Positions 11,001 to 36,830 of a DNA stretch of 37,243 nucleotides are shown piece by piece. A program made the translations under genes and the position numbers. The stretch comes from Quinella sp. 1Q7 (GTDB taxonomy: Bacteria > Bacillota > Negativicutes > Selenomonadales > Selenomonadaceae). The notes below the pieces were generated by a model that searched no databases, was not told the DNA's origin, and saw only the letters and a program-made list of their open reading frames with translations. The stretch lies in the NCBI GenBank assembly GCA_015206805.1, contig JADEZP010000012.1, positions 1-37,243 on the forward strand, in the 5' to 3' direction. Numbering within the stretch: the stretch's first letter is position 1; every line of letters begins with the position of its first letter.

Positions 11001-11160
11001 GCGGCGCGTCCTCCAAACGTTTGAACTTAATTTAAGTTTTTGTGGTCTACTTTCTTTTGCTTGTCCAAAAGAAAAGTAGCAAAAGAAAAGACAGCCGCCT
11101 ACGAAAACGTCACGTTTTCTAACGGCGGCGTCGCGGACCGCGCGTCCATGCGCGGTCCTT
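11001..11160. repeat. Interspersed hairpin element, copy A
   Basis: Three hairpins in a row. H3 at 11047-11079 is CTACTTTCTTTTG, loop CTTGTC, then its complement. H2 at 11094-11129 has GCCGCC/GGCGGC outer arms around GAAAACGT/ACGTTTTC. H1 at 11135-11158 is GGACCGCGC, loop GTCCAT, GCGCGGTCC. The flank TCCAAACGTTTGAACTTAATTTAAG at 11010-11036 also recurs beside other copies. This copy fills most of the gap between divergent tatA and the siroheme gene and ends 26 bases before the latter's start. Confidence 0.85.
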
Positions 11161-11186
11161 AAATCGCTTCACAGGCAGGTGATTAG

Positions 11187-11843
11187 ATGAAACTGTATCC
11201 GATAAATCTTGATGTCGGCGGCAAACGTTGCGCAGTCGTCGGCGGCGGCAATGTCGCGCTTAGAAAAATTCGCACGCTGTCGGAGGCGGGAGCTTGTGTC
11301 GAAGTCATCGCGCCCGAAATTTGCGCACAGGTTGCGGAGCTTGTCGAACGCGGAGAAATTTCTTTGCGGCGTGAAAAATTTTCGGCGGACATGCTCGGAG
11401 ACGAACTGTTGATAATCGCGGCGACGGACAATCCCGAAGTCAATCGGCACGTCGCGCAAGTCGCACGGTCGAAAAAAATTTTGGTCAACGTCGTCAACGG
11501 GTCGGGCGGCGATTTTTTTGTGCCATCGAGTATTCGGCGCGGAGAACTGCTTTTGACGGTGTCGACGGGCGCGAATTCCCCGGCGTTCGCGAAATTTTTA
11601 CGGCTCATGCTGGAGGCGGAACTCGACGAAAATTTCGGCGCGGGACTTGAACTTGTCGCGCGGTATCGGCAGGAAGTCAAACGCCGCTTGCCGAATTCAC
11701 AGGCACGACAAATTTTTTGGCAACGAATTTTGACGCAAGAGACTTGGCAACTGTTACGGTCGGGACAACTCGGCGCGTTGGAGGAACGAATCAATCATGC
11801 ACTTGAAAATTTTGGGGCTCAATCACACGACGGCACCGATTGA
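11187..11843 (+). CDS. Precorrin-2 dehydrogenase/sirohydrochlorin ferrochelatase (CysG N-terminal/Met8 type)
   Basis: The 218-residue protein oxidises precorrin-2 with NAD and may insert iron to form siroheme. It shows MKLYPINLDVGGKRCAVVGGGNVALRK (Rossmann loop GGGNVA, about residues 19-24), ATDNPEVNRHVAQ and VNVVNGSGGDFFVPSSIRRGELLLTVSTGANSPAFAK, all typical of the family. The C-terminal third is a helical dimerisation region. No uroporphyrinogen methyltransferase domain is fused. Its last 47 bases overlap hemA. The cluster links the branch enzyme with the first steps of tetrapyrrole synthesis. Confidence 0.93.
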   Translation: MKLYPINLDVGGKRCAVVGGGNVALRKIRTLSEAGACVEVIAPEICAQVAELVERGEISLRREKFSADMLGDELLIIAATDNPEVNRHVAQVARSKKILVNVVNGSGGDFFVPSSIRRGELLLTVSTGANSPAFAKFLRLMLEAELDENFGAGLELVARYRQEVKRRLPNSQARQIFWQRILTQETWQLLRSGQLGALEERINHALENFGAQSHDGTD

Positions 11844-13071
11844 AGTCCGCGAACGGTTTAGCGTCGGCAAGGAGGCATTGCGGCGCGGGCTTGAAAACCT
11901 TGACGATTACGACGGCTTGAGCGAGGCGGTCGTCCTTAACACGTGCAACCGACTGGAACTTTACGCCGTGACGGTCGACGACTGCGAACAAAGCGTCCGG
12001 CAATTTTTGAGCGATTTAATCGGCGCGGCTGTCGACGAAAAATTTTTGTACGCATTCGACGACGAATCCTGCGCGGCGCACCTGTTCGAGGTCGCGGCGG
12101 GACTTGATTCGCTGATTTTGGGCGAAGGGCAAATTTTGTCGCAGGTCAAGGAAGCTTACACAATCGCGAAGTCGGCGCAGGCGACGGGCACAATCTTGAA
12201 CACGCTGTTCAATCGTGCGATAGCGGCGGGCAAGCGCGTGCGGACGGAAACGCGAATCGCTTACAACACGGTGTCGGTCAGTTCGGCGGCAGTGGAGTTG
12301 GCGGCGCGAAAACTCAACGGACTCGACGGTCGGAGCGCGTTAATCTTCGGCGCGGGCAAAATGGCTCGACTCACGGCGCAACATCTGCTGTCGCACGGAG
12401 TGCGGAAAATTTTCGTCGCGAATCACCATTTGGAGCGGGCGGTCGATATGGCGTCGCGAATCGGCGGACAAGCGGTCGCGTGGGAAGATGCGTTCGTCGA
12501 GGCGGCTCACGTCGACATAATCATCACGTCGACGGGCGCACCGCATTACGTCGTTAAACCGTGGCAAACTCAACAGCTCATGACGCGGCGCGGAGGACGC
12601 GGAATATTTTTCATCGACATTGCGGTTCCGCGCGACGTTGACCCCGAAGTCGGCAAGATAAAGGGCGTCACGCTGTACAACATCGACGACCTTGAATCGG
12701 TGGTTGAGCAAAATTTACAGGCGCGGCGGCACGAGGCGGTGCTTGCAAAAAAAATCGTCGCGGAGGACGCGGCGGCAGTCATGGAGCGTTTCAAGTACTT
12801 GAAGTTTCAGCCGTTGATGGCGAATTTGTCGACGCGTGCGGAAAAAATTCGGGTGCGAGAAATTCGACGCGTGGCGGGCAAACTCCCCGACTTGACCGAC
12901 GACGAACGCAAAATCCTTGACCGTATGACGCGCCGAATCGTCCGCAAGCTGTTGCGCCTGCCGATGATGAATCTCAACGCCTCTGTCGGCACCGACGACG
13001 AAAATTTTTACGCGCAGGCAATGCGGGCACTTTTCAGCGACGAGGAGGCGACGACCGTTGCGCAAAATTAA
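11797..13071 (+). CDS. hemA: Glutamyl-tRNA reductase
   Basis: This 424-residue enzyme reduces glutamyl-tRNA to glutamate-1-semialdehyde, the first step of the C5 pathway. It begins with MHLKILGLNHTTAPIEVRE. The catalytic Cys50 is in VVLNTCNRLELYA, and GEGQILSQVKEAY follows. The NADPH domain has ALIFGAGKMARL, and the C-terminal helical dimerisation domain follows. The ATG at 11797 lies inside the preceding gene with GGAGG 12 bases upstream, so translation is probably coupled. The stop overlaps the TTG start of hemC. Confidence 0.97.
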   Translation: MHLKILGLNHTTAPIEVRERFSVGKEALRRGLENLDDYDGLSEAVVLNTCNRLELYAVTVDDCEQSVRQFLSDLIGAAVDEKFLYAFDDESCAAHLFEVAAGLDSLILGEGQILSQVKEAYTIAKSAQATGTILNTLFNRAIAAGKRVRTETRIAYNTVSVSSAAVELAARKLNGLDGRSALIFGAGKMARLTAQHLLSHGVRKIFVANHHLERAVDMASRIGGQAVAWEDAFVEAAHVDIIITSTGAPHYVVKPWQTQQLMTRRGGRGIFFIDIAVPRDVDPEVGKIKGVTLYNIDDLESVVEQNLQARRHEAVLAKKIVAEDAAAVMERFKYLKFQPLMANLSTRAEKIRVREIRRVAGKLPDLTDDERKILDRMTRRIVRKLLRLPMMNLNASVGTDDENFYAQAMRALFSDEEATTVAQN

Positions 13072-13969
13072 AATCGGCACGCGCGGCAGTCGGTTGGCAC
13101 TGTGGCAAGCGCAATTCGTCGCGGCGGAGCTGAAAAAATTTTTCCCCGCGCTCGACGTCGAACTTGTCACGGTGCACACGACGGGCGACAAAATTTTGGA
13201 CGCACCGCTTGCGAAAATCGGCGGCAAAGGTCTGTTCACCAAGGAGCTCGAACTTCAGCTGGCACGCGGCGAAATTGACGCGGCAGTTCACAGCCTGAAG
13301 GACGTGCCGACGGAACTGCCCGACGGTTTCCGAATCGCGGCGATAACTCGGCGGGCGCAACCGTTCGATGCGTTCGTGAGCAACAAATTTCCGACGTTTG
13401 ACGCATTGCCGACGGGCGCGGTTATCGGCACGTCAAGCTTGCGGAGGGCGGCTCAAGTATCGGCATTGCGTCCGGACGTGGCAATAAAAAATCTGCGCGG
13501 CAACGTTGAAACACGGCTCGGCAAGCTGGACGCGGGCGACTTCGACGCGATAATTTTGGCGGCGGCGGGCTTGGAGCGGCTCGGACACGCGGCGCGAATT
13601 CGTGAGCTGTTGACGGCGATAATTCCTGCGGCGGGACAGGGCGCGTTGGCTATTGAAACTCGCGGCGACGACGAATCGACCTTGCGACTTGTGCGACAGC
13701 TCAACGACGCGGAGACATTTGCGGCGGCTGAAGTGGAGCGGGAATTTTTGCGTGAAGTCGGCGGCAGTTGTCAAGTTCCCGTCGGAGTTTTCGCGCAGGT
13801 CGTCAACGAACAATTAACCGTCCGCGCAGTTATCGCCTCGCCCGACGGAAAACGGCTTGTTACGGATTCGGAGACTGCACCGCTCGACAGCCCGCATATC
13901 GGCTTGAAGTTGGCGCGTCGACTGCTTGAGCTCGGCGGACGAAAAATTTTGGACACGCTGACAAATTAA
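13058..13969 (+). CDS. hemC: Porphobilinogen deaminase (hydroxymethylbilane synthase)
   Basis: This 303-residue enzyme joins four porphobilinogen units using a dipyrromethane cofactor. Visible motifs are KIGTRGSRLALWQAQ (6-20), GKGLFTKELE, AVHSLKDVPT, GTSSLRRAAQ and NLRGNVETRLGKLD. The cofactor Cys238 is in REVGGSCQVPVG. The start is TTG at 13058, 9 bases after GGAGG and 14 bases inside hemA, a tightly coupled arrangement. hemB does not follow; a strong terminator does, so later enzymes lie elsewhere. Confidence 0.97.
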   Translation: MRKIKIGTRGSRLALWQAQFVAAELKKFFPALDVELVTVHTTGDKILDAPLAKIGGKGLFTKELELQLARGEIDAAVHSLKDVPTELPDGFRIAAITRRAQPFDAFVSNKFPTFDALPTGAVIGTSSLRRAAQVSALRPDVAIKNLRGNVETRLGKLDAGDFDAIILAAAGLERLGHAARIRELLTAIIPAAGQGALAIETRGDDESTLRLVRQLNDAETFAAAEVEREFLREVGGSCQVPVGVFAQVVNEQLTVRAVIASPDGKRLVTDSETAPLDSPHIGLKLARRLLELGGRKILDTLTN

Positions 13970-14021: not shown

Positions 14022-14235
14022 GGCCGCCCATGGACGGGCGGCCCCGCCGCACTGAAACAGGATGTTTCATGCGGCGCAAACGCAAATCATCACAACGTGG
14101 CGGGTGGTTCATTAGCAGACCTTCGCCCCCGCGCGTAGCGGGCGAGTTTCTTTGCTACTTTCTTTGCTCGGTCAAAGAAAGTAGATTAACAACACAAAAT
14201 TAATTTCAACGCTTCGGACGACGCGCCGCACCGTC
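14022..14235. repeat. Interspersed hairpin element, copy C (long variant)
   Basis: H1 at 14022-14043 is GGCCGCCC, loop ATGGAC, GGGCGGCC. H2 at 14046-14075 is GCCGC, then GAAACA/TGTTTC, GCGGC. An extra hairpin of CGCCC-CGC/GCG-GGCG type is at about 14123-14145. H3 at 14155-14184 is CTACTTTCTTTG, loop CTCGGT, exact complement. A flank with GACGCGCCGC near 14219-14231 matches the outer flank of copy A in inverse order. It occupies the gap between convergent hemC and the SGNH hydrolase gene; no gene is seen in it. Confidence 0.85.
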
Positions 14236-14250: not shown

Positions 14251-15867
14251 TCATTGGAACAAATTTTTATGCTTGCTGATTAGCTCGCCGATTAACATCT
14301 TGCCGCGCAGGTCGGGGTGAATTCCGTCGACTGACAGCGCAACATTCATTGTGCCGTTCGCGTCGTAAAAATACGGCTCAATGTCAATGACGAACTCCTG
14401 CCGCCGAATGTATTCGTTAATCTGTTGCAACTTGCTGTGCCAATCGGGGTCGGTATCGGTGCGGAAGGCGTTGCGTATGTTGTCGGGATTAATCGGCATG
14501 AGCGTCAAGAACACGGGACGAATATTATTTTGCAGGCAAAGTTTGTTGATGCCCGCAAGGTCGCTGATAACGTCTTCGGCGGTGATTCGGGCGTCGCGCA
14601 GACAATTCGCGCCCGTCGAAATTATCAAGTTGCGCGGCTTGAGCGGCAAGACATCGTGATCGAAACGTTCAAGCGTCGTGCGGGAAGTGTCGCCGCTTTT
14701 CGAGACGTTGATAACGGGGAAGTCGATATACGTTTCGTAACTGTACTGCAGGGCTCGCGGTGAGTAGCTGACTGCGCCGCCGCCGTGGCTTATGCTGTCG
14801 CCCAAAATGACGACATCGACGCCGCCCGTGTAATCGTCGACGATAAATTTTTCCGTGTCGGACCACGTGCCGATTGTGCGATTGTTTTCGTCGAGCGCAC
14901 GCACGCGCCAATAATACGCGCCGGCATAAGGTCGCCCGTATTCGTCGTAGCAGCTGGCGACATCCTCGCTGACCATGTGCCAAACGCTGTCGTGACTGGG
15001 CTCGGTATCGTGTTCCTTTTCGGGCGGGTGAACGAGCATTTCAACTTCATACTTCGCGGCGTCGTTGAGCGGTATCCAATCGAACACGTGATAAATCGGT
15101 TGCGGCAGGTAGTCCATGAAGTCGAAGTTGTTAATCAGCGGGCAATCGGGCATCGGCTTCGACGGATCGACGGGAATTTTTTCAGCCTTGCAGAATTCGC
15201 CAATCGGCTCGTGACGCAAACCCAAAGCCCTCGCCCGCCACCAGACCTCCCGCCGATTGTACGGGCGCAAATCGGCTTGGTAACCGTTTGTGTAAATTTT
15301 GCGCGTGTTGAAGAGACTGTGGCTCGTCGAAAGCGCAATGCCGCCTTCAACTTCGGGCGGGGCGTCCAAAAGCTCAAGTTCGTAGCAAACGGCGTTGGGT
15401 ACGGTATGCCACACGAGGAACGGCATTTGACTGGCGGGATTGTCCGCGCCGTAATGATAGATGCTGACGGGGTGCGGCGGCGTCGGGAAATTCGGGTTTG
15501 CGTAAAGTTTTTCACTGCGGTAGACTTCGCCGAACAATCCCCGCGCCGTGATGAAATAGTACGTCGGTATCGGCGCGCGCGGCACAATGTAGCTTGCGGA
15601 GCGCGACTCGTCCTCCTTGAAGATGTGGAACGGCGGCGAATCCTCGACAAGCCCCGTCGTGCGGCTGACGGTCGTTATCTTGTAAATGCACGGGTACGGC
15701 AACGGTTGCCACGTCATAAGCGTATCGTCGCCTTCCTGCGCGAAAGTCACGTTCAGGGCGCGACCTTTGAGCCGGAGTACGTCGGTCTTTTCGGCGGCGA
15801 ACAAACTCAACATCGCGAAAGACATCATCAGCGCGGCAAGTATCGTGAACGTCAAAAAATTTTTCAT
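14251..15867 (-). CDS. Secreted SGNH/GDSL hydrolase with N-terminal beta-sandwich-like region
   Basis: The 538-residue protein has a signal peptide (MKNFLTFTILAALMMSFAML, cut near AA-E). A long N-terminal part (about 30-345) has repeated fibronectin-like W/Y-rich strands such as YYFITARGLFGE, VWWRARALGL and YYWRVRALDENN, each followed by a linker. The C-terminal SGNH hydrolase shows GDSIS with nucleophile Ser358 (356-360), SGDTS, STGANCLRD (block III Asn421) and DGIHPD (Asp/His pair). Such enzymes deacylate esters, often on cell-wall or LPS sugars; the substrate is unknown. Start 15867 is set by GAGGAG 9 bases upstream and by a 4-base ATGA overlap with the preceding gene. A much longer open frame upstream is antisense noise over that gene. 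Confidence 0.88.
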   Translation of the reverse strand: MKNFLTFTILAALMMSFAMLSLFAAEKTDVLRLKGRALNVTFAQEGDDTLMTWQPLPYPCIYKITTVSRTTGLVEDSPPFHIFKEDESRSASYIVPRAPIPTYYFITARGLFGEVYRSEKLYANPNFPTPPHPVSIYHYGADNPASQMPFLVWHTVPNAVCYELELLDAPPEVEGGIALSTSHSLFNTRKIYTNGYQADLRPYNRREVWWRARALGLRHEPIGEFCKAEKIPVDPSKPMPDCPLINNFDFMDYLPQPIYHVFDWIPLNDAAKYEVEMLVHPPEKEHDTEPSHDSVWHMVSEDVASCYDEYGRPYAGAYYWRVRALDENNRTIGTWSDTEKFIVDDYTGGVDVVILGDSISHGGGAVSYSPRALQYSYETYIDFPVINVSKSGDTSRTTLERFDHDVLPLKPRNLIISTGANCLRDARITAEDVISDLAGINKLCLQNNIRPVFLTLMPINPDNIRNAFRTDTDPDWHSKLQQINEYIRRQEFVIDIEPYFYDANGTMNVALSVDGIHPDLRGKMLIGELISKHKNLFQ

Positions 15868-16343
15868 GGGAAGTAGCTCCTCAACAGCGCGACATCTCCG
15901 AATCGAATCAGCAGGCAGATTAAAATTATCAGCGCGACAAAAAAATATTCCCGCCACGTGCCGACCTTGAACAGCTTGAGCCCGTGTTTGCCGTGCGGCG
16001 TGAATATCGGGACTTTGCCGCAAAATGCGTCCTCGGCAATGTGCAACAGTGCCCCGACCAGCGCGTAGGTCACAACGTTCAGCGCGACTGCAAGCGTCGG
16101 ATTCGGGTAGTAGTCTTTGGCGAACTGCGCGGCACAAATCAGCGCGACGTAAATCAGCGGGTAATGCGACCACGTGCGGTGACGTTTGCGCCACTTCCAA
16201 TAAGCGGCACTGTCACGCGGCGGGGAGCCTTCGACTCTGTCGGGCAATACCGCGCCGACAATGCTCGACGCCGTAAACAACGCATCGTTCGTCGCCGTGC
16301 ACACGATAAAGCCCGTAACAATCTGATGATTAATCCACTTCAA
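15864..16343 (-). CDS. YdjM-type membrane-bound metal-dependent hydrolase (DUF457-like)
   Basis: This 159-residue protein starts MKWINHQIVTGFIVCTAT and has about four hydrophobic segments. HRTWSHYPLIYV (about 54-65) and LLHIAEDAFCGKVPIFTPHGKHG (about 98-120) carry the conserved His/Asp residues of the YdjM family, whose biochemical role is poorly known. The start codon is TTG at 16343 with AAGGGG 7 bases upstream. It overlaps the SGNH hydrolase gene by ATGA, so the two form an operon at the membrane or envelope. Confidence 0.85.
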   Translation of the reverse strand: MKWINHQIVTGFIVCTATNDALFTASSIVGAVLPDRVEGSPPRDSAAYWKWRKRHRTWSHYPLIYVALICAAQFAKDYYPNPTLAVALNVVTYALVGALLHIAEDAFCGKVPIFTPHGKHGLKLFKVGTWREYFFVALIILICLLIRFGDVALLRSYFP

Positions 16344-16430: not shown

Positions 16431-18173
16431 ATGAAAAACATTCAGACGGAAACGCGCACGATTAAAGAAATTTTCGCCGACAGGAAGACGGATTTTTTGA
16501 TACCCGATTATCAGCGACCGTATTCGTGGACGGAGGACGAGTGTCAAACGCTGTGGAACGATTTTTGCGATTTTGCCTTCCCGAACGGTAACGCCGACGC
16601 CTTCGACAAGGAGCGGGACGAATATTTTCTCGGAGTGATTGTCACGTTCGGCAACGACCGCGAGCTTGACGAAATTATTGACGGGCAACAACGGCTCACG
16701 ACGTTATTGCTGTTCATGCGGGCGTTTTATAAGGCACTCGGCGGCGACGACGGCACTTACTCCAAGATAATCGAAAATCTCGGCGAATGCATTTGGAAGA
16801 CCGACGAACTCGGCGAACTCAACAAATCGTCGCTGAAAATCGTTTCGGAGGTCATTCGCGAAGACGCCAAGGACGAACTGCAACGGATTCTGTCGACGGG
16901 CGCGGTCACTAAAGCCGACACGAGCAACTATGCCGCCGCTTACGGTTTCTTTCAAGCCGCGATTCACGACCTCAAAAAAGTCATCGGCGAAAAGACGTTG
17001 CAATATCTGCCGGCGCGGATTATGGACAAATGCTTTCTGACCCGAATTCGCGCCGAGTCGCAGGATTTTGCTTTGCAGATGTTTTCGACGCTCAACGACC
17101 GCGGCTTGCCGCTTTCCGACACCGACATTTTCAAGGCGATAATGTACAAATTTTTCACTGCGGCGGGCAAATGCTTCGGCGAAGATTTTATTCGGCAGTG
17201 GCGGGAACTTGAACGTCGCGCAGAAAAAACTTTCGGCAAACATCACGGGCTCAACGTCAATCCGCTTGAATTTCTGTTTACGTGCTATTCGTACAGGGAA
17301 TTTTCGACGGCAAGCAAGAAACTGCGCCGCGCCTACGAACGGGACAATTACGCCGTGTTGCGCCGAAAAGAAATGCCCGCCGAGTTGTTTGGCTTGATGG
17401 ATTTTTTCGACGACCTGCTTGAGCAAAATTTGTTGCGCTTCCCGATTAAAGCCGTGCGATATGCCCACATCTTATTTCGCGCAAAAAATTCGTTCATTTG
17501 GCTGATTATGGCGCACTACTACCTTTGCGAACGCGACGACCGCAATCACCTTGACGGGGAAATTTTCGCGGAATTTTTGGAACGACTGTTGGCATTTCTG
17601 TTGGCGCACGCCATAACCTGCACGTCAACGAATGCGCTAAGGGGATACGCCTTCCGCACGTTGAGCCAATTAAAAAAGCCCGTCCCGAAAGGTCTCAAGC
17701 CGTACACGTTTTCGGCGGAGGTAATTCGCACGGAAATGAACATGTTCGGCGTCAAGCGGCAGAAAAAGCTTATGATGTTCCTCGTCTTGAATTGGTGGAC
17801 TTTCCGCGACGAAAATCAAAAGCTCCCGCCGATTGAGCGGAAGTTTGACATTGAGCACATCTTCCCGAAAAGTTTGGCGGACAGCTTTGAAAATTTCCAC
17901 AACAAAAACAGCGTGAACTTGCTCGGAAATTTGGCGTTGTTGGAGCACGGCAAGAACAATAACGCCGCAAGTCACCACTTCGCCGACAAACGCAAAGTTT
18001 ATCTCGGCTTTGAGCGCAACGGAAAATTTCAGGCGGGCACGCTGAATCGTGAACTTCAACAGTTGGCGCAGACTTTGAGCAATTTCGGCGAAACGGAAAT
18101 TATCAAACGCAACTCGCAGATGATTGCGGAGGTTTTGAGTTTCGTCGACAAGCACAACTTCCTGCAAAATTAA
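16431..18173 (+). CDS. GmrSD-like DUF262/DUF1524 protein (candidate defence nuclease)
   Basis: The 580-residue protein carries an N-terminal DUF262 domain with [17 protein letters not shown] (about 22-38) and [13 protein letters not shown] (81-93), the DGQQR nucleotide-binding signature. The C-terminal DUF1524 HNH-like domain has [11 protein letters not shown] (about 472-482) and [17 protein letters not shown]. The family includes type IV restriction enzyme GmrSD, which cuts glucosylated DNA, and many uncharacterised single proteins. AGGAGG precedes the ATG at 16431. It stands alone: no methylase or second defence gene is adjacent, and it converges with hisF, overlapping it by 4 bases. Composition resembles its neighbours, so recent acquisition is not obvious. 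Confidence 0.88.
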
Positions 18174-18925
18174 AATCGGACTTCGACGCCGCGCCGCGAA
18201 AGATATTCCTTGACCGCGCGGATTGTGTACTTGCCGTAATGGAAGACCGACGCCGCAAGCACCGCGTCCGCCTTGCCGTCGACAAGCACGTCGTAGAAAT
18301 GCTCAAGCTCGCCCGCGCCGCCCGAAGCAATGACGGGGACGTTGACCGCCTCGCTGACTGCGCGCGTAAGTTCAATGTCGTAGCCGCCCTTCGTACCGTC
18401 GGCATCCATGCTCGTAAGCAAAATTTCGCCCGCGCCGAGTTCGACGCCGCGTTTGACCCATTGCAGACAGTCAAGCCCCGTCGGAGTTCTGCCGCCGTTT
18501 ACGTAAATTTCCCAGCCCGAATCGGAGCGTTTGGCATCGACCGCAAGCACGACGCATTGACTGCCGAAACGTCGCGCACCTTCGGCAATGAGTTCGGGAT
18601 TTTTGACCGCCGCGCTGTTGACGGAAATTTTGTCCGCGCCCGCCGCCAACATCACGCGCATATCTTCAGCCGTGCGAATGCCGCCGCCGACCGTAAACGG
18701 AATGAACACCTGCGCGGCGCAACTGCGTGCGACTTCGACCATGGTGCCGCGCCCTTCGTGTGAAGCGGTGATGTCCAGAAAAACAAGTTCGTCGGCGCGT
18801 TCGGTATCGTAGCGTTTGGCAAGTTCGACGGGATCGCCGGCGTCGCGCAATCCGACAAAATTGGTGCCTTTGACGACGCGTCCCGACTTCACGTCGAGGC
18901 ACGGAATAATTCTCTTGGTAAGCAT
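18170..18925 (-). CDS. hisF: Imidazole glycerol phosphate synthase subunit HisF
   Basis: The 251-residue TIM barrel makes IGP and AICAR using ammonia from HisH. It has [19 protein letters not shown] with catalytic Asp11, [32 protein letters not shown] (second catalytic Asp), [10 protein letters not shown] and [10 protein letters not shown]. The start at 18925 is set by GGAGG 7 bases upstream. The open frame continues further upstream only because it runs through an intergenic repeat. HisA is the preceding gene in the same direction, with that repeat between them. hisH and the other his genes are not in view. Confidence 0.97.
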
Positions 18926-18956
18926 GTTAATTCCTCCGTCAGGCGACAACGTATGA

Positions 18957-19115
18957 GGGCCGCGCATGGACGCGCGCCCTGCGTCGCCGCCGTTAGAAAA
19001 CGTGACGTTTTCGTAGGCGGCTGTCTTTTCTTTTGCTACTTTTCTTTTGGACAAGCAAAAGAAAAGTAGTTCACACATACAAAATTATTAAACACTTGAA
19101 TCAGCGCGTCGCCCG
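18957..19115. repeat. Interspersed hairpin element, copy B
   Basis: H1 at 18957-18979 is GGGC-CGCGC, loop ATGGAC, GCGCG-CCC. H2 at 18986-19021 is GCCGCC...GAAAACGT/ACGTTTTC...GGCGGC. H3 at 19036-19069 is CTACTTTTCTTTTG, loop GACAAG, exact complement. It sits between hisA and hisF in the 191-base gap, opposite in orientation to copy A relative to the plus strand, and would be transcribed within the his message. Confidence 0.85.
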
Positions 19116-19116: not shown

Positions 19117-19842
19117 TCAAGCCTCCGCAAGCGCAATCGCCGCCGACAAGTCAAACGTGCCCGTGTAAATCGCCTTGCCGACAATGACGCCGACCACGCC
19201 CGCCGATTCGACAGCCTTCAACGCGCGAATGTCCTCAATCGACCGCACGCCGCCCGACGCGACAATTTGCGCACCCGACGACTTCGCAAGCCGCGCGAAA
19301 ACTCCGGCGTCGACGCCGCTCAACATGCCGTCGCGGGAAATGTCGGTGTAAATTATCGTCTTGACGCCCGCCGTGACAATCCGCCGCGCAAGGTCGTCTG
19401 CAGTGACGGTGCTTGAACGTTCCCAGCCGTGAACCGCGACAAGTCCGCCGCGAGCGTCAATCCCGACGACAATCCGACTTCCGAAACGTGCGACAGCCTC
19501 CGCGACGAGCGACGGATTTTCGACCGCGACACTGCCCAAAATCACGCGGCGAACTCCCAACGTCAACAGCCGCTCAATATCGTCAAGCGACCTCACGCCG
19601 CCGCCGACTTCAATCGGAATGGTCACGGCGTCGAGGATTTTTTTTATGGCGTCGAGATTTTTCGGCGAGCCCGCCCGCGCACCGTCAAGGTCAACGACGT
19701 GCAGGAACTTCGCGCCCGAATTCTGCCACTTGAGAGCCGTCGCCGCCACGTCGTCGGAATAAACCGTTTCGCGCCCGAAGTCGCCTTGCACAAGCCGCAC
19801 GCACTTGCCGCCGAGCAAATCAATCGCAGGAAAAATTATCAT
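19117..19842 (-). CDS. hisA: Phosphoribosylformimino-5-aminoimidazole carboxamide ribotide isomerase
   Basis: This 241-residue TIM barrel isomerises ProFAR to PRFAR in histidine synthesis. It starts MIIFPAIDLLGGKCVRLVQG (catalytic Asp8) and shows PIEVGGGVRS, VILGSVAVENP, IIYTDISRDGMLSG (second Asp) and IVASGGVRS. The GAGG within a short ATTAGGA-type repeat 8 bases before the ATG at 19842 acts as ribosome site. It follows the hydrogenase protease gene by 23 bases on the same strand and is separated from hisF by the hairpin element. Confidence 0.97.
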   Translation of the reverse strand: MIIFPAIDLLGGKCVRLVQGDFGRETVYSDDVAATALKWQNSGAKFLHVVDLDGARAGSPKNLDAIKKILDAVTIPIEVGGGVRSLDDIERLLTLGVRRVILGSVAVENPSLVAEAVARFGSRIVVGIDARGGLVAVHGWERSSTVTADDLARRIVTAGVKTIIYTDISRDGMLSGVDAGVFARLAKSSGAQIVASGGVRSIEDIRALKAVESAGVVGVIVGKAIYTGTFDLSAAIALAEA

Positions 19843-22005: not shown

Positions 22006-22024
22006 GATAATCGCTCCTTTTTAA

Positions 22025-27550: not shown

Positions 27551-27580
27551 CTGTTTTCCCTCCGTGAAAAAGTTTCTACG

Positions 27581-27639: not shown

Positions 27640-27851
27640 TTGGGCGTCGTGCCGTATCAAGCGTTGAACTTCGATTGAGTTTGTAGCATCTACTTTCTTT
27701 TGCTTGCCCAAAAGAAAGTAGCAAAGAAAAGGGCACCTCGCAGGGGCGTTAGTCCCGAATATTCCAACGTTGCGACCACCCGCGACCGACTGTTGCCCGC
27801 GGACTTCGCATCACGCTCAGTGCGCGGGCAGGGCGCACGTCCATGTGCGCC
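27640..27851. repeat. Interspersed hairpin element, copy D (long variant)
   Basis: H3 at 27690-27721 is CTACTTTCTTTTG, loop CTTGCC, exact complement. Instead of the usual H2 there is a longer insert ending in a hairpin TGCCCGCG/CGCGGGCA (about 27793-27830). H1 at 27832-27851 is GGCGCAC, loop GTCCAT, GTGCGCC. The left flank GCGTTGAACTTCGATTGAGT matches the flank of other copies. It separates ftsZ from the amidohydrolase gene and ends 16 bases from the latter's stop. Confidence 0.85.
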
Positions 27852-31472: not shown

Positions 31473-32642
31473 ATGTTCATTTTGATAACGTCGGCGATTT
31501 TGGGAACGGTCGTCGCCGTCGCGCTGGTGTCGATAAAATTTTTGTTCAGTGAGCGGCTCGCGCGCAAGTTCTACAAAATTTTCGCGCTGGCGGATTTGGC
31601 GGTCATTGCCGTGATAATCGGCGGCTGGTGGATTCGCGGGCTCGTGCCGGATTTTTTTATCGCGGTCTTCGGAAATTGCGCGACGATATTTTTAATGGCG
31701 CAACTTATCTGCGGCGCACTGGTAATCGTCGCAGTCGTGGCGCGGTGGATTTATCGCAAGTTCGCCAAGCCGAAACCGTTTGACCCTGCGCGGCGGCGGG
31801 CACTGGCTCACGCAATGTTGTATCCGCTGTTCAGCGCGGCAATCGCACTTTACGGCAACCGCGTCGAAAAAAATTCCGACGTGGAAAATTTCTTCGACGT
31901 GCCGATAAAAAATCTGCCGCCCGATCTCGACGGCTTCAGACTCGCGCAAATCTCGGACATTCATCTCGGCGCGTATTATTCGCTTGAACGGCTGGAGGCA
32001 CTCCTGCAACGAATCGCCGACGCTAAGCCCGACATGCTCGCGATAACGGGCGACATCTTCGACGACGTGACGATGAATCCCGCCGCCGTAAAGATTGTCG
32101 ACGCCTTCACCGACAAATTCAAATTCGGCGTCTGGTACATTCACGGCAACCACGAACATTTTCGCGGCATTCGGGCGATTGAAAATTTGCTCGCGCAGAC
32201 GAAAATTCATTGGCTCGTGAATCACGCGGAGCATGTCACGTCGAAACTGTACATCCTCGGCGTCGACTACCCGCCGCGTGCGCCCGTCACCAGCTCAAAC
32301 GACGCGGAGCACGTGAAACTTTTCGCGCAGGCTCGGAAAAATTTCGTCGACCTTGCGGCTGAAGGTGTTCCCGCCGACGCCGTGAAAATTTTGCTCGCGC
32401 ACCACCCCGAATTCATTGACGACGGCGCGGAACGAAATTTCCCGCTCACGCTGACTGGGCACACTCACGGCGGGCAAATCGGCATCTTCGGCGTCCCGAT
32501 ATTCCCTGTGTTCAAGTACACGCGCGGCGTCGTCAAGCGCGGAGATAGCTTCGGTTACGTCCACGTCGGCAACGGCAGTTGGTTCCCGTTCAGATTCGGT
32601 TGCCCGCCCGAAATCGCTTACTTCACGTTGCGAGGTGCTTGA
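31473..32642 (+). CDS. Membrane-anchored calcineurin-like metallophosphoesterase (YkuE-like)
   Basis: The 389-residue protein has three to four N-terminal membrane segments (about 2-105). A phosphoesterase domain follows with the metal motifs ISDIHLG, ITGDIFDD, IHGNHEHF, LLAHHPE and LTGHTHGGQIGIF. It resembles YkuE-type enzymes, proposed to act at the membrane or cell wall; substrate unknown. The start is 3 bases after the folD stop. Its stop codon lies 1 base before the original TTG start of the rluB copy at 32644, whose ribosome site GAGG is inside this gene. Confidence 0.9.
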   Translation: MFILITSAILGTVVAVALVSIKFLFSERLARKFYKIFALADLAVIAVIIGGWWIRGLVPDFFIAVFGNCATIFLMAQLICGALVIVAVVARWIYRKFAKPKPFDPARRRALAHAMLYPLFSAAIALYGNRVEKNSDVENFFDVPIKNLPPDLDGFRLAQISDIHLGAYYSLERLEALLQRIADAKPDMLAITGDIFDDVTMNPAAVKIVDAFTDKFKFGVWYIHGNHEHFRGIRAIENLLAQTKIHWLVNHAEHVTSKLYILGVDYPPRAPVTSSNDAEHVKLFAQARKNFVDLAAEGVPADAVKILLAHHPEFIDDGAERNFPLTLTGHTHGGQIGIFGVPIFPVFKYTRGVVKRGDSFGYVHVGNGSWFPFRFGCPPEIAYFTLRGA

Positions 32643-32643
32643 C

Positions 32644-32797
32644 TTGGAACGACTGCAGAAACTTATCGCCCGCGCAGGAATTTGTTCACGGCGGGCGGCT
32701 TAAGAACTCATTGCGGCAGGTCGCGTTACCGTTGACGGCAAAATCGTCACGGAGCTCGGCGCGAAGGCTGATACCAATCAAAAAATCCGCGTCGACG
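32644..32797 (+). pseudogene. rluB, N-terminal duplicate with nonsense codon
   Basis: This is a near-exact copy of the first about 50 codons of the intact rluB that begins at 32836. Codon 20 is TAA (32701-32703) instead of GAA, one 3-base insertion is present, and the copy ends abruptly after GCGTCGAC. It sits exactly where an operon-coupled rluB should start, right after the phosphoesterase stop, so it is probably the ancestral 5' end. Confidence 0.9.
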
Positions 32798-32800
32798 TGT

Positions 32801-32808
32801 GATATAAT
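32801..32808 (+). promoter_or_regulatory. Extended -10 promoter for intact rluB
   Basis: TGATATAAT spans 32800-32808 (TG-A-TATAAT), the same extended -10 as before tatA; no -35 box is seen at 17 bases. It lies exactly between the N-terminal fragment and the intact gene, 28 bases from the TTG start. Confidence 0.55.
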
Positions 32809-32835
32809 CGCCTAAAAATTTTTGGGGCTGATAAC

Positions 32836-33555
32836 TTGGAACGACTGCAGAAACTTATCGCCCGCGCAGGAATTTGTTCGCGGCGGGCGGCTGAAGAACT
32901 CATTGCGGCAGGTCGCGTCACCGTTGACGGCAAAATTGCGGAGCTCGGCGCGAAGGCTGACACCAATCAAAAAATCCGCGTCGACGGCAAACTGTTACGC
33001 CTCGGCGCGGAAAAAATTTATCTGTTGCTCAACAAGCCGCGCGGTTACGTTTCGACGGCGCATGACGATCGCGGTCGCAAAACCGTTTTGGACTTGCTCG
33101 GCGAAAATTTTTCGGAGCGCGTGTATCCCGTCGGCAGACTCGATTTGAATTCGGAAGGGCTCATCCTGCTCACCAACGACGGCGAACTTACCAACGCGCT
33201 GATTCACCCGCGATACGGAGTCGCCAAAACTTATCGCGCCAAAATTTCGGGCACCGTCACGGAGGAAAAACTCGACCGCTTGCGCACGGGCGTTGAGCTC
33301 GACGACGGACTTACTGCGCCCGCCGAAGTTTACATGCTTGCCGCAGACACCGTTGAAATCACGATTCGCGAGGGGCGCAATCGGCAGGTGCGGCGGATGT
33401 TCGCGGCAATCGGTTGCGACGTTAAGCGACTGCGCCGAATTCGATTCGCGGGCTTGACATTGGACGGCGTGCCCGTCGGGAAATTTCGCAGACTGACGTC
33501 AGCGGAGGTTGCGGCACTAAAAAATTTTTCACAACGCGACGACTTACGGTCATGA
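32836..33555 (+). CDS. rluB: Pseudouridine synthase RluB/RsuA family
   Basis: The 239-residue enzyme makes pseudouridine in rRNA. An S4 domain (1-47: ERLQKLIARAGICSRRAAEELI) precedes the catalytic domain with LLNKPRGYVST, VYPVGRLDLNSEGLILLTNDG (catalytic Asp103) and REGRNRQVRRMFAAIG. The start is TTG with GGGG 8 bases upstream. Both ends exist a second time: the 5' end just upstream and the 3' end just downstream. The last 12 residues (KNFSQRDDLRS region) differ from the duplicate tail. Confidence 0.93.
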   Translation: MERLQKLIARAGICSRRAAEELIAAGRVTVDGKIAELGAKADTNQKIRVDGKLLRLGAEKIYLLLNKPRGYVSTAHDDRGRKTVLDLLGENFSERVYPVGRLDLNSEGLILLTNDGELTNALIHPRYGVAKTYRAKISGTVTEEKLDRLRTGVELDDGLTAPAEVYMLAADTVEITIREGRNRQVRRMFAAIGCDVKRLRRIRFAGLTLDGVPVGKFRRLTSAEVAALKNFSQRDDLRS

Positions 33556-33596
33556 ATGCTTGCGGTGAACATAAGCAGGATGCAACGTCACGTTGC

Positions 33597-33727
33597 CAAT
33601 CGGTTGCGACGTTAAGCGACTGCGCCGAATTCGATTCGCGGGCTTGACATTGGACGGCGTGCCCGTCGGGAAATTTCGCAATCTGACGGCGGCGGAGGTT
33701 GCGACACTTAAAGGAGTATTGACGTGA
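33597..33727 (+). pseudogene. rluB, C-terminal duplicate
   Basis: From 33597 the sequence repeats 33407-33522 at an offset of 190 with a few changes and keeps an open frame (AIGCDVKRLRR, then VPVGKFRNLTAAEVATLKGVLT, stop). Its TGA at 33725-33727 overlaps the GTG start of the next gene, and AAAGGAG inside it is that gene's ribosome site. This is probably the ancestral 3' end of rluB, still coupled to the flavoprotein. Confidence 0.9.
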
Positions 33728-34956
33728 AAAAAATTTTTGTTATCGGCGGCGGACCTGCGGGTATGATGGCGGCAATTCGTGCGGCGGAGGGCGGCGCGTC
33801 GGTTACGCTGTTCGAGAAGATGAGCCGCGTCGGACGCAAGCTCGGCATTACGGGCAAAGGGCGTTGCAACTTGACGAACACCGCCGACGTCGCCGAAGTC
33901 GTCCGCAATTTGCCCGGCAACGGAAAATTTCTTTACAGCGCGTTGAAAAAATTTTCGTCCGCCGACACCGTGAGTTTCTTTGAGGATTTGGGCGTGGTCA
34001 CGAAAGTTGAGCGCGGCGGCAGAATTTTTCCGGCAAGCGACGACGCTTCCGAAGTCATTGACGCGCTTTTGAGGCGGCTGACGATTTTGGGCGTCGATGT
34101 GCGGACGAACTCAACCGTCACGAAAATTTTGGCGGAGTCGCACAAAGTTACGGGCGTGCTCGTCAACGGGAAAATTCTTGCGTGCGACGCGGTGATTTTG
34201 GCGACGGGCGGCGCGTCGTATCCTGCTACGGGCTCGACGGGCGACGGCTTCCGCATGGCGCGACAACTCGGTCACAACGTTACGCCGATACTTCCCGCAC
34301 TTGTCCCGCTCGAAACGGAGGAAGACTTTGTTCGCGACGTACAAGGGGTATCGCTCAAAAATGTGCGCGTGAAACTTTTGGCGGACGGAAAATCTGTCGC
34401 GGAGCAATTCGGCGAAATGCTGTTCACGCACTTCGGAGTGAGCGGACCGATAATCTTGACGTTGAGTCGGCAAGCCGCGCAACTTTTGGCGGACGGGCGA
34501 TTCGTGGAACTGGAACTCAACCTTAAGCCCGCACTCAAGCCCGAACAACTCGACGCAAGGATTTTGCGCGACTTTGACAAATTCAAACGTAAATCGCTCA
34601 AAAATGCGCTTGTCGAATTGTTGCCCGCGAAACTGATACCAATCGTGCTCGACCTGTCGTATCTGGCGGAAGGCAAGCGCGTCGACGAAGTCACGCAGTC
34701 GGAACGGCGTCGGCTCGCGGAAATTTTGCAGAGCTTGCCGCTGACGATAACGCGCACGCGACCGATTGACGAGGCGATTGTTACGGCGGGCGGCGTCGAC
34801 GTGAAAGAACTCGACCCGCGAACGATGCGTTCCAAACTCGTGGAGGGCTTGTTCGTCGTCGGGGAGGTTGCGGACGTTGACGGCTTCACGGGCGGATTCA
34901 ATTTGCAGGCGGCGTGGTCAATGGGCAACGTCGCGGGAATTTCCGCCGCACTGTGA
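33724..34956 (+). CDS. HI0933/YhiN-family FAD-dependent oxidoreductase
   Basis: The 410-residue flavoprotein opens KKIFVIGGGPAGMMAAIRAAEGG (FAD loop, residues 6-17), then LFEKMSRVGRKLGITGKGRCNLTN, the family's GKGRCN motif. LATGGASYPATGSTGDG lies in the middle, and VGEVADVDGFTGGFNLQAAWSMG at the C-terminus completes the FAD site. Family members are often of unknown substrate (BaiN acts on bile acids). The GTG at 33724 lies 7 bases after AAAGGAG and overlaps the old rluB stop. Confidence 0.93.
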   Translation: MKKIFVIGGGPAGMMAAIRAAEGGASVTLFEKMSRVGRKLGITGKGRCNLTNTADVAEVVRNLPGNGKFLYSALKKFSSADTVSFFEDLGVVTKVERGGRIFPASDDASEVIDALLRRLTILGVDVRTNSTVTKILAESHKVTGVLVNGKILACDAVILATGGASYPATGSTGDGFRMARQLGHNVTPILPALVPLETEEDFVRDVQGVSLKNVRVKLLADGKSVAEQFGEMLFTHFGVSGPIILTLSRQAAQLLADGRFVELELNLKPALKPEQLDARILRDFDKFKRKSLKNALVELLPAKLIPIVLDLSYLAEGKRVDEVTQSERRRLAEILQSLPLTITRTRPIDEAIVTAGGVDVKELDPRTMRSKLVEGLFVVGEVADVDGFTGGFNLQAAWSMGNVAGISAAL

Positions 34957-35196
34957 CGGAGACTGACGCGATTGTCGCTCAAGCATTCGTCGGCGAATTT
35001 GATACGTCGCGAAAAAATTTTCGTCTGCGCCGTGACGGAGACTGACGCGATTATCGCTCAAGCATTCGTCGGCGAATTTGATACGTCGCGAAAAATTTCT
35101 GCCGCACTGTTGACGGAGACTGTCGCGATTGTCGCTCAAGCATTCGTCGGCGGATTTGCACCGTCGCAAAAAAATTTCCGCCGCGCTTTGATGGAG
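34946..35196 (+). repeat. 78-79-bp tandem repeats leading into the secretin gene
   Basis: TGACGGAGACTG...GATT.TCGCTCAAG units start at 34954, 35033 and 35111, and a fourth, diverged one at 35189 (TGATGGAGGTTGATTCGATTG) is the start region of the secretin gene itself. The first unit includes the stop codon of the flavoprotein gene. Each unit also has GCGAATTTGATACGTCGCGAAAA and ends with CCGC. Each therefore carries a ribosome-site-like GGAG. Confidence 0.88.
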
Positions 35197-35206
35197 GTTG
35201 ATTCGA

Positions 35207-36601
35207 TTGAAACTCAAGGGACTTGCGCCGATTGTTGCTTCGGCGATTTTTTTTATGACGACGCCGACGCTTGCCGCACCAATGACGCTCAACGTGCACG
35301 ACGCCGATTTGCGCGCAACGATAATGCTCGTCGCCAAAACCGGCGGGCTCAACGTCGTGGCGGACGATTCGGTTAAAGGCAACGTCTCAATATCGGTGAC
35401 GGACGTCGACCCCGTGCGCGTCCTTGAAATCATCGCCAACATAAAAAATCTGCGGCTGTTGCACGAGGCGGACGTTTACATTTTGACGGCGGAATTGCGC
35501 CCTGCCGAGCCCATGCAAAGTTACGTCCTGCCGATAAAATTCGGAGACGCGGCGATACTTCGCAAGGCGGTCTTCAAGTCGTTGGATATGGAGCCCGACA
35601 AGCCGCTGTCCGAGAGCACCAAGTTCAAGGACGCCGACGGCATCGAACGCACTTACACTTACAGATACCGTGAACGCTCTTCAAACGACTGGAAGACCGA
35701 TACCGAAGACGAAAAAGATCCGCGCGCCAAAAGAGTTTATGTCAATCCCGAAGTCAACGCGCTTGTCCTGTACGGCACGCCCGCCGAATATGAACGCGTC
35801 AAAAATCTTTTGGCGACGCTCGACGTTGAGCTCAAGCAAGTTTCCGTTGAGGCGCGAATCATCGCCATTGACAAGAACGCGACTAAAAATCTCGGCGTGG
35901 AGTGGATGTGGTCGACCGTCCCGCAATATCCCGACCGCGACGTAGAATACACTCCGCCAACTTATAATTCCAATGGCACTCTGCGCACTTCCGGTTTTTA
36001 TAAAGAAACTTACACGCGCGAAGCTAATGCGTCCACAGGTTACGGAATTATTCAATTTGGACGCGGACCGACAGGCACTCCGTTTGAATTTTATTACGGC
36101 GCGAAGATTAACGCGCTTGTCACCGACGGCAAGGCGAAAATTCTTTCACGCCCGAATGTCACGACGATTCAAGGGCGCGAAGCTGTGATTAACGTCGGAA
36201 GTTCCGTGCCCGTGCCGAAAATTTCTTCAAACAACACCGCCACCACAACTGAATTTGAATATCGCGACGCGGGAATTATTTTGCGCTACACGCCGCGCAT
36301 AAACGCCGACGGCACAATCACCGCGACAATTCACACGGAGGTAAGCACGCCGCAATACGTTGAGGATATGGGTGCTTACCGATTCAACACGCGCTCGGCT
36401 GATACGACCGTTACCGTGCGCGACGGCGAACCGATGATTATCGGCGGGCTAATCGGCGCGGAAGAGGCGAAGTCCGTCAGCAAGATACCGTTTCTGGGCG
36501 ACTTGCCGATACTCGGCGCACTGTTCCGCAATCATCGCAAAAGCAAATCCGAATCCGAACTTATAATTTTTTTGACGGCGCACGTTCTCGGCAACAAATA
36601 A
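35207..36601 (+). CDS. Secretin-family outer membrane pore protein (PilQ/GspD-like)
   Basis: The 464-residue protein has a signal peptide (MKLKGLAPIVASAIFFMTTPTLA). An N0/STN-type domain (about 27-85: MTLNVHDADLRATIMLVAKTG, GNVSISVTDVDPVRVLEII) is followed by an N1-like domain with RVYVNPEVNALVLYGTPAEYERV. The secretin domain has SVEARIIAID, AKILSRPNVTTIQGREA, ILRYTPRINADGTI and IPFLGDLPILGALFR. TTG at 35207, 9 bases after GGAGG, is preferred to a TTG that touches the site. No pilus or type II secretion partner is in view, so whether it serves pili or secretion is open. The stop is 318 bases from RNase J. Confidence 0.92.
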   Translation: MKLKGLAPIVASAIFFMTTPTLAAPMTLNVHDADLRATIMLVAKTGGLNVVADDSVKGNVSISVTDVDPVRVLEIIANIKNLRLLHEADVYILTAELRPAEPMQSYVLPIKFGDAAILRKAVFKSLDMEPDKPLSESTKFKDADGIERTYTYRYRERSSNDWKTDTEDEKDPRAKRVYVNPEVNALVLYGTPAEYERVKNLLATLDVELKQVSVEARIIAIDKNATKNLGVEWMWSTVPQYPDRDVEYTPPTYNSNGTLRTSGFYKETYTREANASTGYGIIQFGRGPTGTPFEFYYGAKINALVTDGKAKILSRPNVTTIQGREAVINVGSSVPVPKISSNNTATTTEFEYRDAGIILRYTPRINADGTITATIHTEVSTPQYVEDMGAYRFNTRSADTTVTVRDGEPMIIGGLIGAEEAKSVSKIPFLGDLPILGALFRNHRKSKSESELIIFLTAHVLGNK

Positions 36602-36664
36602 ACTTACACGCCACGAAATTCTGCGTTGCAACCGACGACGAGTTGAATCAGTTGAGCGATTGGA

Positions 36665-36830
36665 GGCCGCCCAAGGATGGGCGGCCCTGACCGCCGCCGT
36701 TAGAAAACGTGACGTTTTCGTAGGCGGCGCGGCTTTCTTTGCCTACTTTCTTTCGCCGCCGAAAGAAAGTAGGTTCATCAAACTTAAATCGAAGTTCAAA
36801 CGTTCGAATCAGCGAATCACACGCCCGCAA
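36665..36830. repeat. Interspersed hairpin element, copy E
   Basis: H1 at 36665-36686 is GGCCGCCC, loop AAGGAT, GGGCGGCC. H2 at 36693-36728 is GCCGCC...GAAAACGT/ACGTTTTC...GGCGGC. H3 at 36742-36773 is CCTACTTTCTTTC, loop GCCGCC, exact complement. The flank CTTAAATCGAAGTTCAAACG follows. It fills the gap between the secretin and RNase J genes; no gene is seen. Confidence 0.85.

Follow-up and report, generated by a model that had tools for sequence, protein, structure and literature searches.

A dispersed intergenic repeat of Quinella sp. 1Q7 with a covarying, putative triple-helix pseudoknot

The window analysed here, a stretch of 37,243 nucleotides from Quinella sp. 1Q7 (contig JADEZP010000012.1) whose own positions serve as coordinates throughout, contains five copies of a short intergenic repeat that can be read, 5' to 3', as a hairpin H1 with the loop ANGGAY, a second hairpin H2 or another middle part, a prefix of 3-6 nt, a pyrimidine leader of 7-10 nt, a short G-N(1-2) linker and a third hairpin, H3. 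Comparison of these copies with each other and with loci from other genomes reveals that the leader mostly mirrors the pyrimidine arm of H3 and that the prefix can pair with the first bases of the H3 loop. Both rules hold while the sequences themselves change, and the conserved structure is very probably a covarying triple-helix pseudoknot. What the element conserves would thus be the fold of one strand, as the covariation behind the pairing and mirror rules suggests. We favour, with a probability of about one half, the explanation that it is a dispersed, mobile, non-coding repeat recognised as folded single-stranded DNA.

Copies of the element in the host genome

Re-reading of the window finds all five copies that an initial annotation had placed in it, as well as the remnant noted near 6897-6914, which spans 6886-6913. 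As had been claimed, both orientations occur (three copies on the plus and two on the minus strand) and one copy lies between hisF and hisA. Because the copies lie on both strands, the H1 loop appears as ATGGAC in some and as GTCCAT in others; put in one orientation, it reads ATGGAC in four of the five and AAGGAT in the remaining one. The stretch 18950-19072 of copy 3 folds with z-scores of -6.5 (DNA) and -6.2 (RNA) against dinucleotide shuffles.

The host genome, that is, the 2.58-Mb draft assembly containing the window (95% complete, 5.7% contamination), yields 49 matching pieces with a 171-bp query, 40 of them with E < 1e-22. The hairpin-only pattern CTACTTTN{6,30}AAAGTAG matches it 98 times on each strand, the reversed-pattern control giving 0. 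The window copies are a sample of about 100 short non-coding elements in this genome.

The leader mirrors the pyrimidine arm of H3

The 5' arm of H3 is made of pyrimidines and its 3' arm of purines, and the run immediately 5' of it is the pyrimidine leader (58 oriented copies inspected). The mirror analysis started from hairpins whose TAC-pyrimidine-arm stem pairs perfectly; they were taken from the window and the collected loci, three E. coli loci being left out. They gave 503 strand entries, comprising 235 with a 5' pyrimidine leader, 12 without a leader on either side and 256 with a 3' purine run only, the latter because the opposite strand is read. The 235 leader-bearing copies come from the host genome (41), from further genomes, mostly of the same genus (60), and from listed named contigs (134); taxa and counts from these contigs are a sample, among the matches listed. 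Distinct prefix-leader-arm-loop combinations were counted, for asymmetric arms only, after merging sequences identical over the 30 nt upstream and the hairpin.

Counted in this way, the leader is a perfect mirror of the pyrimidine arm in 21 of 21 combinations from the host genome, where 14 of the 41 sequences came from a similarity query that contains the leader, in 19 of 20 from the further genomes, and in 43 of 58 from the listed named contigs, where the hairpin pattern fixes the first seven arm bases so that the mirror is tested by the arm extensions only. A pattern for the hairpin only had served to collect the contigs and most of the further genomes, the leader being no part of the selection. 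Merging of the sets gives 77 perfect mirrors among 93 distinct combinations. A direct copy of the arm in the leader is found in none of the three sets (0/93), and a direct duplication of the arm is thereby rejected as the origin of the leader. The 93 combinations hold 22 distinct arm/leader pairs: ten perfect mirrors, built on ten different arms, eleven that are one base off, mostly at the outer end of the leader, one that is worse, and none that is direct. In all eight pairs of the host genome the leader mirrors the arm; thus TTTCTTTTT precedes an H3 with the arm TTTTTCTTT, and CTTTCTTT one with the arm TTTCTTTC.

The mirror counts rule out a simple hairpin repeat without a third strand. It could be argued that mirrors arise by chance in low-complexity pyrimidine tracts, since T-rich arms make partial matches easy and just 22 distinct pairs are available; given ten perfect pairs, eleven one base off and no direct copy, together with a prefix/loop helix far above shuffles (see below), we regard the probability of this as negligible. 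A mirror leader fits a parallel Hoogsteen third strand, which needs a mirror. From the mirror and the pairing rules we infer that the leader would lie parallel to the purine arm of H3 as such a strand (T·A-T and C+·G-C triplets, T(U)·A-T(U) type), and its sequence is compatible with the purine arm, as required of an intrastrand triplex motif of class IV/II.

A helix between prefix and loop

The prefix, just 5' of the leader, can base-pair with the beginning of the H3 loop. The host genome uses TGTC/GACA, GCCC/GGGC, GCGG/CCGC and CGAG/CTCG, and other pairs occur elsewhere, such as GCTGC/GCAGC in Caballeronia, TCGCC/GGCGA in betaproteobacteria and GGTGC/GCACC in Lysobacter and Stenotrophobium. 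A helix of at least 4 bp can be formed by 86 of 131 distinct prefix/loop pairs (1000 shuffles: mean 17.7, maximum 30) and one of at least 3 bp by 109 of them (mean 55.2, maximum 73), pairs whose leader had more than one mismatch being excluded here as well as from the wobble counts given below, which also leave out loops shorter than 5 nt. The misses (<3 bp) amount to 19/88 in the listed named contigs and 3/37 in the further genomes. This is the loop-to-prefix helix that an H-type triplex pseudoknot requires. Prefix, leader, stem, loop and stem would then form an H-type pseudoknot in which the leader runs along the deep groove of the H3 stem, a topology read from the sequence. Elements bearing the pseudoknot are found in several phyla, and since the strands covary between copies and in distant bacteria, the knot itself may be what evolution keeps. 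The initial annotation had claimed that the folded form is kept; the case is stronger than it supposed, as the mirror leader, the pseudoknot and the triple helix were not part of it.

Two further features of H3 loci were seen. Some proteobacterial copies (e.g. L101, L120 and L151) show by eye a small hairpin such as TCGCT..AGCGA directly 3' of H3, possibly a further module. In Burkholderia/Paraburkholderia (L092, L114, L117, L137, L152), inverted H3 pairs lie 427-506 nt apart with the leaders inside and a common outer GTGCCGCCCCGCACAGGGG, an arrangement that resembles the ends of a larger element.

Hairpins H1 and H2

The stems of H1 and H2 had been proposed to covary, and between genomes they do. 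The 36 distinct H1 stems are 94.4% Watson-Crick paired, whereas exchange of the 3' arms among copies gives 47.0% on average and at most 57.9%; for the 26 distinct H2 stems the value is 98.7%, against 41.7% and 62.2%, respectively. As stems were chosen for at least 5/7 (H1) or 5/6 (H2) Watson-Crick pairs, these fractions are high partly by construction, so that only the contrast with the arm swaps counts, which shows that different stems are in use. The host genome by itself offers eight H1 and four H2 stems, for which arm swaps reach the observed value; with so few stems, the window taken by itself could not have settled whether they covary.

In H1 the loop reads ANGGAY, with each of the four bases observed at N, and not the near-constant ATGGAC of the initial annotation. 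Of 50 distinct forms of stem plus loop, 49 have C-G as the closing pair. The pentaloop of H2 reads GTGAY or [AC]GGAY and is closed by C-G in 28 of 29. On the 5' side of H3, over a span of 450 nt, an ANGGAN hexaloop hairpin is present in 37/41 copies of the host genome, 50/60 of the further genomes and 24/134 of the listed named contigs, and on the 3' side, over a shorter span of 300 nt, in 0/41, 2/60 and 0/134; some of those in the further genomes are H2-type hairpins with the stem TAAAAAC and the loop AGGGAT (e.g. in G057). The complementary loop ATCCAT occurs within 450 nt 5' of H3 in 4/60 copies of the further genomes and 3/134 of the listed named contigs. Among hairpin loops within 150 nt 5' of H3, on the leader-bearing strand, GGA is present in 96 of the 235 copies and TCC in none.

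Copy number and insertion at the hisA-hisF junction

Across 24 relatives within the genus the pattern count ranges from 0 (four genomes, one of them rated 100% complete) to 237 (G021), with 102 in the host genome; the reversed control gives 0-38 per genome, and 1-5 in G021, G010, G015 and the host genome, with 1 in G021 and 2 in the host genome. The hisA-hisF junction allows a comparison of orthologous sites. A HisA match is present in 57 of 60 genomes of the genus, and the junctions of the 30 best-scoring of these 57 were read. In 22 the gap from the end of the HisA match to hisF is at most 8 nt, three have 41-58 nt without this element, in one no hisF was found, and four (G000, G021, G056 and G057) contain the element. 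The four elements all differ in sequence, and that of G057 is inverted relative to the others. Filled and empty orthologous sites, as looked for in a mobile element, are thus both present (4 filled, 25 without, 1 without hisF). Counts of 0-237 within one genus and different elements at 4 of 30 junctions indicate that the element is mobile, in support of the non-autonomous mobile unit suggested by the initial annotation: it is present or absent at a given site, has inserted independently, and lies between genes in either orientation. In G021, H3 starts about 8 nt past the hisA stop, which places H3 near an end of the element and implies that the AT-rich tail of the host-genome copies is not essential.

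In G072, G015 and G045 the hisA-hisF gap is filled by short repeats of other sequence, resembling the AATTAGGAATTAGGAATG-type repeat described below. A scan of IMG/VR gave 23 stretches, 18 with a leader, at least two pairs being near-identical and several having a plausible loop-prefix helix by eye; with the element present but rare there, a viral origin was rejected.

Orientation to genes and occurrence of CsrA

The genes flanking 36 elements of the host genome are oriented ++ in 12 cases, -+ in 8, +- in 6 and -- in 5, five elements being one-sided; these counts are approximate, as a simple gene caller was used, at least one element (L001) was misassigned and 6 of the 36 overlap a called open reading frame. 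For 127 elements of the listed named contigs the numbers are 28 +-, 24 ++, 21 -- and 16 -+, the remainder being one-sided or inside a called open reading frame, so that convergent placement exceeds divergent placement while same-strand and opposite-strand neighbours are even. On viral contigs (n=19) the orientations are ++ (5), -- (5), +- (4) and -+ (1). G-U pairs account for 6/246 pairs in H1, 3/180 in H2 and 12/412 in the pseudoknot, with no benchmark RNA alongside; as a test of the strand, G-T versus A-C gives 6:0, 3:3 and 12:9, respectively, which is not decisive. Mixed orientation and few G-U pairs make us lean towards a role at the DNA level. The GGA loops and the putative pyrimidine-motif triplex speak for the H1-to-H3 strand as the folding one.

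Promoter and terminator scans found no promoter-like and no terminator-like site within copies 3 and 5; a promoter-like site lies at 36838-36866, past copy 5. In the copy 2 stretch there are three terminator-like sites, against a mean of 0.7 in shuffles; one precedes the element, and the other two overlap each other in its middle.

High-affinity CsrA/RsmE sites are described as an ANGGAX hexaloop directly on a stem, with a CG closing pair named, and AGGAX pentaloops are also bound (PMC4005645). H1 has this form, an ANGGAX hexaloop on a C-G-closed stem, most listed named-contig copies excepted, and H2 fits only where it reads AGGAY. CsrA was found in the host genome and in 53 of 60 genomes of the genus. 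Among the 49 genomes behind the listed named-contig loci, in which the presence of H1 was judged from one to few copies each, CsrA occurs in 11/11 with H1 in the sampled copies versus 11/38 without (hypergeometric 2.4e-5). The 11 H1-carrying genomes are five of Selenomonadales type (at least three of the window's genus, judged by identical places of CsrA or of the pattern), five Methylococcales and one Lysobacter, and the CsrA-less genomes include many betaproteobacteria and Bacteroidota; with few clades involved, descent alone could give this association. One genome, that of an Acidiferrobacterales locus (G118, locus L161), has 12 CsrA-family matches, two of them below the family cut-off.

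Comparison with known systems

BoxC/PIT intrastrand triplex repeats were reportedly treated by Hoyne and Maher. The present element resembles the BoxC/PIT/TM-ECO repeats in being dispersed, in combining a hairpin with a third strand and in its variable copy number. Holder et al. 2015 (PMC4666352) surveyed intrastrand triplex repeats in 5246 genomes and plasmids with a focus on the G+C-rich BoxC; by their naming, one strand of H3 falls into class IV, which they found to be the rarest, and the opposite strand into class II, and a pseudoknot is not among the features of triplex repeats given in the excerpts of that paper. Whereas BoxC is G+C-rich, the element here has an A+T-rich core, a mostly exact mirror and an added, mostly G+C-rich pseudoknot helix. 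Membership of BoxC/TM-ECO was rejected, since H3 arms of TTTCTTT type do not match the consensus CCCTCNCCC-N3-6-GGGNGAGGG-N3-GGGNGAGGG (PMC4666352). In three E. coli BoxC copies inspected by eye with 60 nt on each side, the bases beside the third strand form no helix with the loop of the hairpin, the third strand is no exact mirror (GGGTGAGGG vs. GGGAGAGGG), and no ANGGA hexaloop hairpin is apparent, one copy containing the word ACGGAC.

Telomerase RNA, SAM-II and preQ1-II contain H-type pseudoknots with a major-groove triplex of comparable topology. Such triplex-pseudoknot RNAs are known as unique RNA genes or riboswitches, unlike the element here, which is a dispersed repeat of mixed orientation without a known ligand. 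Its proposed arrangement, with a prefix, a leader in the deep groove, a stem, and a loop pairing with the prefix, is likewise that of an H-type pseudoknot with major-groove triplex such as the SAM-V riboswitch (PMC6061858).

At the gathering score, no Rfam family was found on the window; on 16 other loci the matches were two tRNAs and, some 520 nt away from H3, one Bp1_684. A relaxed threshold on 12 loci led to 15 sub-threshold matches, the best being Bacillaceae-1 at E 0.02 (L303, 337-401, minus strand); the consensus loops GUCCUG and AUCCUG of this family read CAGGAC and CAGGAU on the other strand, and the family may be strand-ambiguous and related. Rfam also holds TwoAYGGAY, a hairpin family of the CsrA/RsmA-binding type. 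With CsrB/RsmZ-type RNAs the element shares the ANGGAX hexaloop or AGGAX pentaloop on a C-G-closed stem, although RsmZ has eight GGA motifs against one, at times two, per element (PMC4005645). Haemophilus aegyptius carries the H3 fold (L151), and the Haemophilus intergenic dyad sequences are intergenic palindromes thought to matter for gene-locus mobility in H. influenzae (PMC4144887), a likeness by description. Searches of the open-access literature by topic and by sequence words gave no report of a dispersed repeat whose triple-helix pseudoknot covaries, most subscription journals lying outside their scope.

Copies in the window and their surroundings

The positions of the copies and of their parts are collected in Table 1. 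Around the remnant, neither a leader nor an H3 was found between 6860 and 7110. The window also contains a second short repeat, AATTAGGAATTAGGAATG, in both orientations at 19822-19872 and 22021-22102, as well as direct repeats, in tandem or close together and some 46-156 bp long, at 2799-3149, 7829-8206, 32642-32936, 33407-33712 and 34938-35218.

Table 1. Positions of the element copies and their parts in the window (the third strand is a proposed one)
Feature	Position	Strand	Details
Remnant	6886..6913	+	two ATGGAC words
Copy 1, complete element	11001..11160	-	between gene 10279-10986 (+, without Pfam match) and sirohaem synthase-like gene 11187-11843 (+)
Copy 1, prefix, leader and H3	11047..11093	-	prefix TGTC 11090-11093; leader TTTTCTTTT 11081-11089; H3 11047-11079, purine arm short by one A
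Copy 1, H1 loop	11144..11149	-	ATGGAC
Copy 2	14022..14235	+	longer middle; between hemC (13058-13969, +) and GDSL lipase-like gene (14251-16200, -)
Copy 2, H1	14022..14043	+	loop ATGGAC 14030-14035
Copy 2, H2	14046..14075	+	pentaloop AGGAT 14059-14063; stem TGAAAC/GTTTCA
Copy 2, putative pseudoknot	14143..14184	+	prefix CGAG 14143-14146; leader TTTCTTT 14147-14153; H3 14155-14184, loop with CTCG
Copy 3	18957..19115	+	between hisF (18170-18925, -) and hisA (19117-19842, -)
Copy 3, H1	18957..18979	+	loop ATGGAC 18966-18971; stem with one bulged base
Copy 3, H2	18986..19021	+	two-step stem GCCGCC/GGCGGC and GAAAACG/CGTTTTC
Copy 3, putative pseudoknot	19022..19069	+	prefix TGTC 19022-19025, pairing with GACA in loop; leader TTTTCTTTT 19026-19034 (proposed third strand); H3 19036-19069
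Copy 4	27640..27851	-	middle differs; between ftsZ (26330-27601, -) and amidohydrolase gene (27867-28715, -)
Copy 4, putative pseudoknot	27690..27736	-	prefix GTGCCC 27731-27736; leader TTTTCTTT 27723-27730; H3 27690-27721, loop GGGCAAG
Copy 4, H1 loop	27839..27844	-	ATGGAC
Copy 5	36665..36830	+	follows secretin gene (35198-36601, +)
Copy 5, H1 loop	36673..36678	+	AAGGAT, N = A in ANGGAY
Copy 5, putative pseudoknot	36729..36772	+	prefix GCGG 36729-36732; leader CTTTCTTT 36733-36740; H3 36743-36772, loop with CCGC

Discussion

In elements of the IS200/IS605 type, hairpin ends mark the element for transposition. By the explanation that we favour, the present element would fold as single-stranded DNA when one strand is exposed, e.g. 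at the replication fork, and H1 and the H3 triplex pseudoknot would label its two ends, to be recognised by an enzyme that acts in trans to move it, probably one other than the IS200/IS605 type; a copy transcribed in the sense direction would, in CsrA-bearing bacteria, expose a consensus CsrA hairpin as well. Several observations weigh against this explanation. No enzyme that would mobilise the element turned up in the searches made: the transposase family Y1_Tnp (PF01797) is absent from the 95% complete draft of the host genome and from 14 of 15 other genomes of the genus searched, including the high-copy G021, G010 and G015, and RVT_1, present in 6 of 25 genomes of the genus, does not track copy number. 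H1 accompanies just 24 of the 134 listed named-contig copies and is therefore no universal end; the closeness of its loop to the consensus of an RNA-binding protein is left unexplained by a role in DNA alone. No target-site duplication was seen by eye at hisA-hisF, and no exact ends of the element could be assigned. Finally, the count pattern used within the genus is loose, with a control of up to 38, so that small counts may be due to chance and only the high ones are clear.

The main rival is an RNA element, a role that the initial annotation had also considered. Transcription of the H1-to-H3 strand would come from read-through or yield a small RNA; H1 and the AGGAY-type H2 would be sites for CsrA, as in CsrB/RsmZ, the RNA would be stabilised by its 3' triplex pseudoknot, and the many copies would act as a CsrA decoy or as CsrA sites in messages. 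Such a role would account for the free N and the C-G closing pair of the ANGGAY loop, for the position of ANGGAN hairpins 5' of H3, for the excess of GGA over TCC on the strand of the pyrimidine leader, for the occurrence of CsrA in the host and in every H1-carrying genome of the sample and for the 6 to 0 ratio of G-T to A-C in H1 stems; in addition, RNA can form the pyrimidine-motif triplex, though not the purine motif (PMC4666352). Against it stand the mixed orientation to neighbouring genes, the lack of promoter-like sites within the element and the small number of terminator-like sites in the three of five window copies scanned, G-U pairs that look few, the frequent GTGAY rather than GGA loop of H2, the occasional ATCCAT loops within 450 nt, the confounding of the CsrA association by descent, and the presence of CsrA in genus genomes with a zero count (G003, G004 and G008). 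With H1 matching the CsrA/RsmE consensus hairpin and orientation being mixed, we hold the RNA role to be a tentative alternative, on balance rather doubtful. A related possibility, a mobile RNA-active repeat, would be a selfish intergenic element whose transcripts show the consensus CsrA hairpin with the triple-helix pseudoknot as a stability element, and whose multiplication, reaching a pattern count of 237 in G021, would rewire or titrate the CsrA regulon; this we judge unlikely.

Less probable still is a structure-prone repeat without mobility of its own, in which the triplex stalls replication forks and the copies spread and disappear through slippage during replication and through recombination, a mechanism proposed for BoxC/TM elements. 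In E. coli, BoxC triplex motifs are tied to local instability, and their number differs strongly from strain to strain (PMC4666352), and the pattern count is equally variable in the window's genus. Slippage, however, leaves mirror and Watson-Crick covariation over several phyla unexplained, and it hardly accounts for different complete H1-middle-H3 elements at one conserved junction in four genomes. Elements of the REP/REPIN-RAYT kind (repetitive extragenic palindromes and their REP-associated tyrosine transposases) and of the IS200/IS605 type have hairpins near their ends, lie between genes in either orientation and occur in many copies. The element here resembles them in these respects, and a REP/REPIN moved by a RAYT (Y1/HUH) transposase is further suggested by GTAG at the base of H3, by the inverted H3 pairs of Burkholderia-type genomes and by Y1_Tnp in 9 of 12 carriers reached via listed named contigs. 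It differs in the triplex pseudoknot at one end and in the missing Y1 transposase of the host genome; of the 15 other genomes of the genus searched, one has Y1_Tnp. A search for a REP-associated transposase, as the initial annotation had advised, thus found none (PF01797) in the host genome; RAYT/REPIN was rejected for this host and is disfavoured in the genus, leaving room for a RAYT role outside it. To our knowledge, leader, triplex and pseudoknot are no REP features and are foreign to the REP definition, so that the RAYT explanation as a whole appears very improbable. Spread by reverse transcription was rejected as well, RVT_1 having one partial match in the host genome and not being found in the high-copy G021, G010 and G015, while the genome with the highest number of matches (14) is G017, whose pattern count is 2. 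The interpretation given by the initial annotation is, on the whole, partly supported.

Natural triple helices have often been argued from few sequences. Here ten asymmetric arms follow the mirror rule and dozens of prefix/loop helices the Watson-Crick rule adjoining it, which together provide evolutionary evidence for an intramolecular triplex pseudoknot. The set of elements is a ready panel of natural triplex variants, and the loop of CsrA type offers a concrete partner for an assay. The cellular role of triplex repeats, an old question, thereby becomes testable in carriers such as Methylomonas or Lysobacter.

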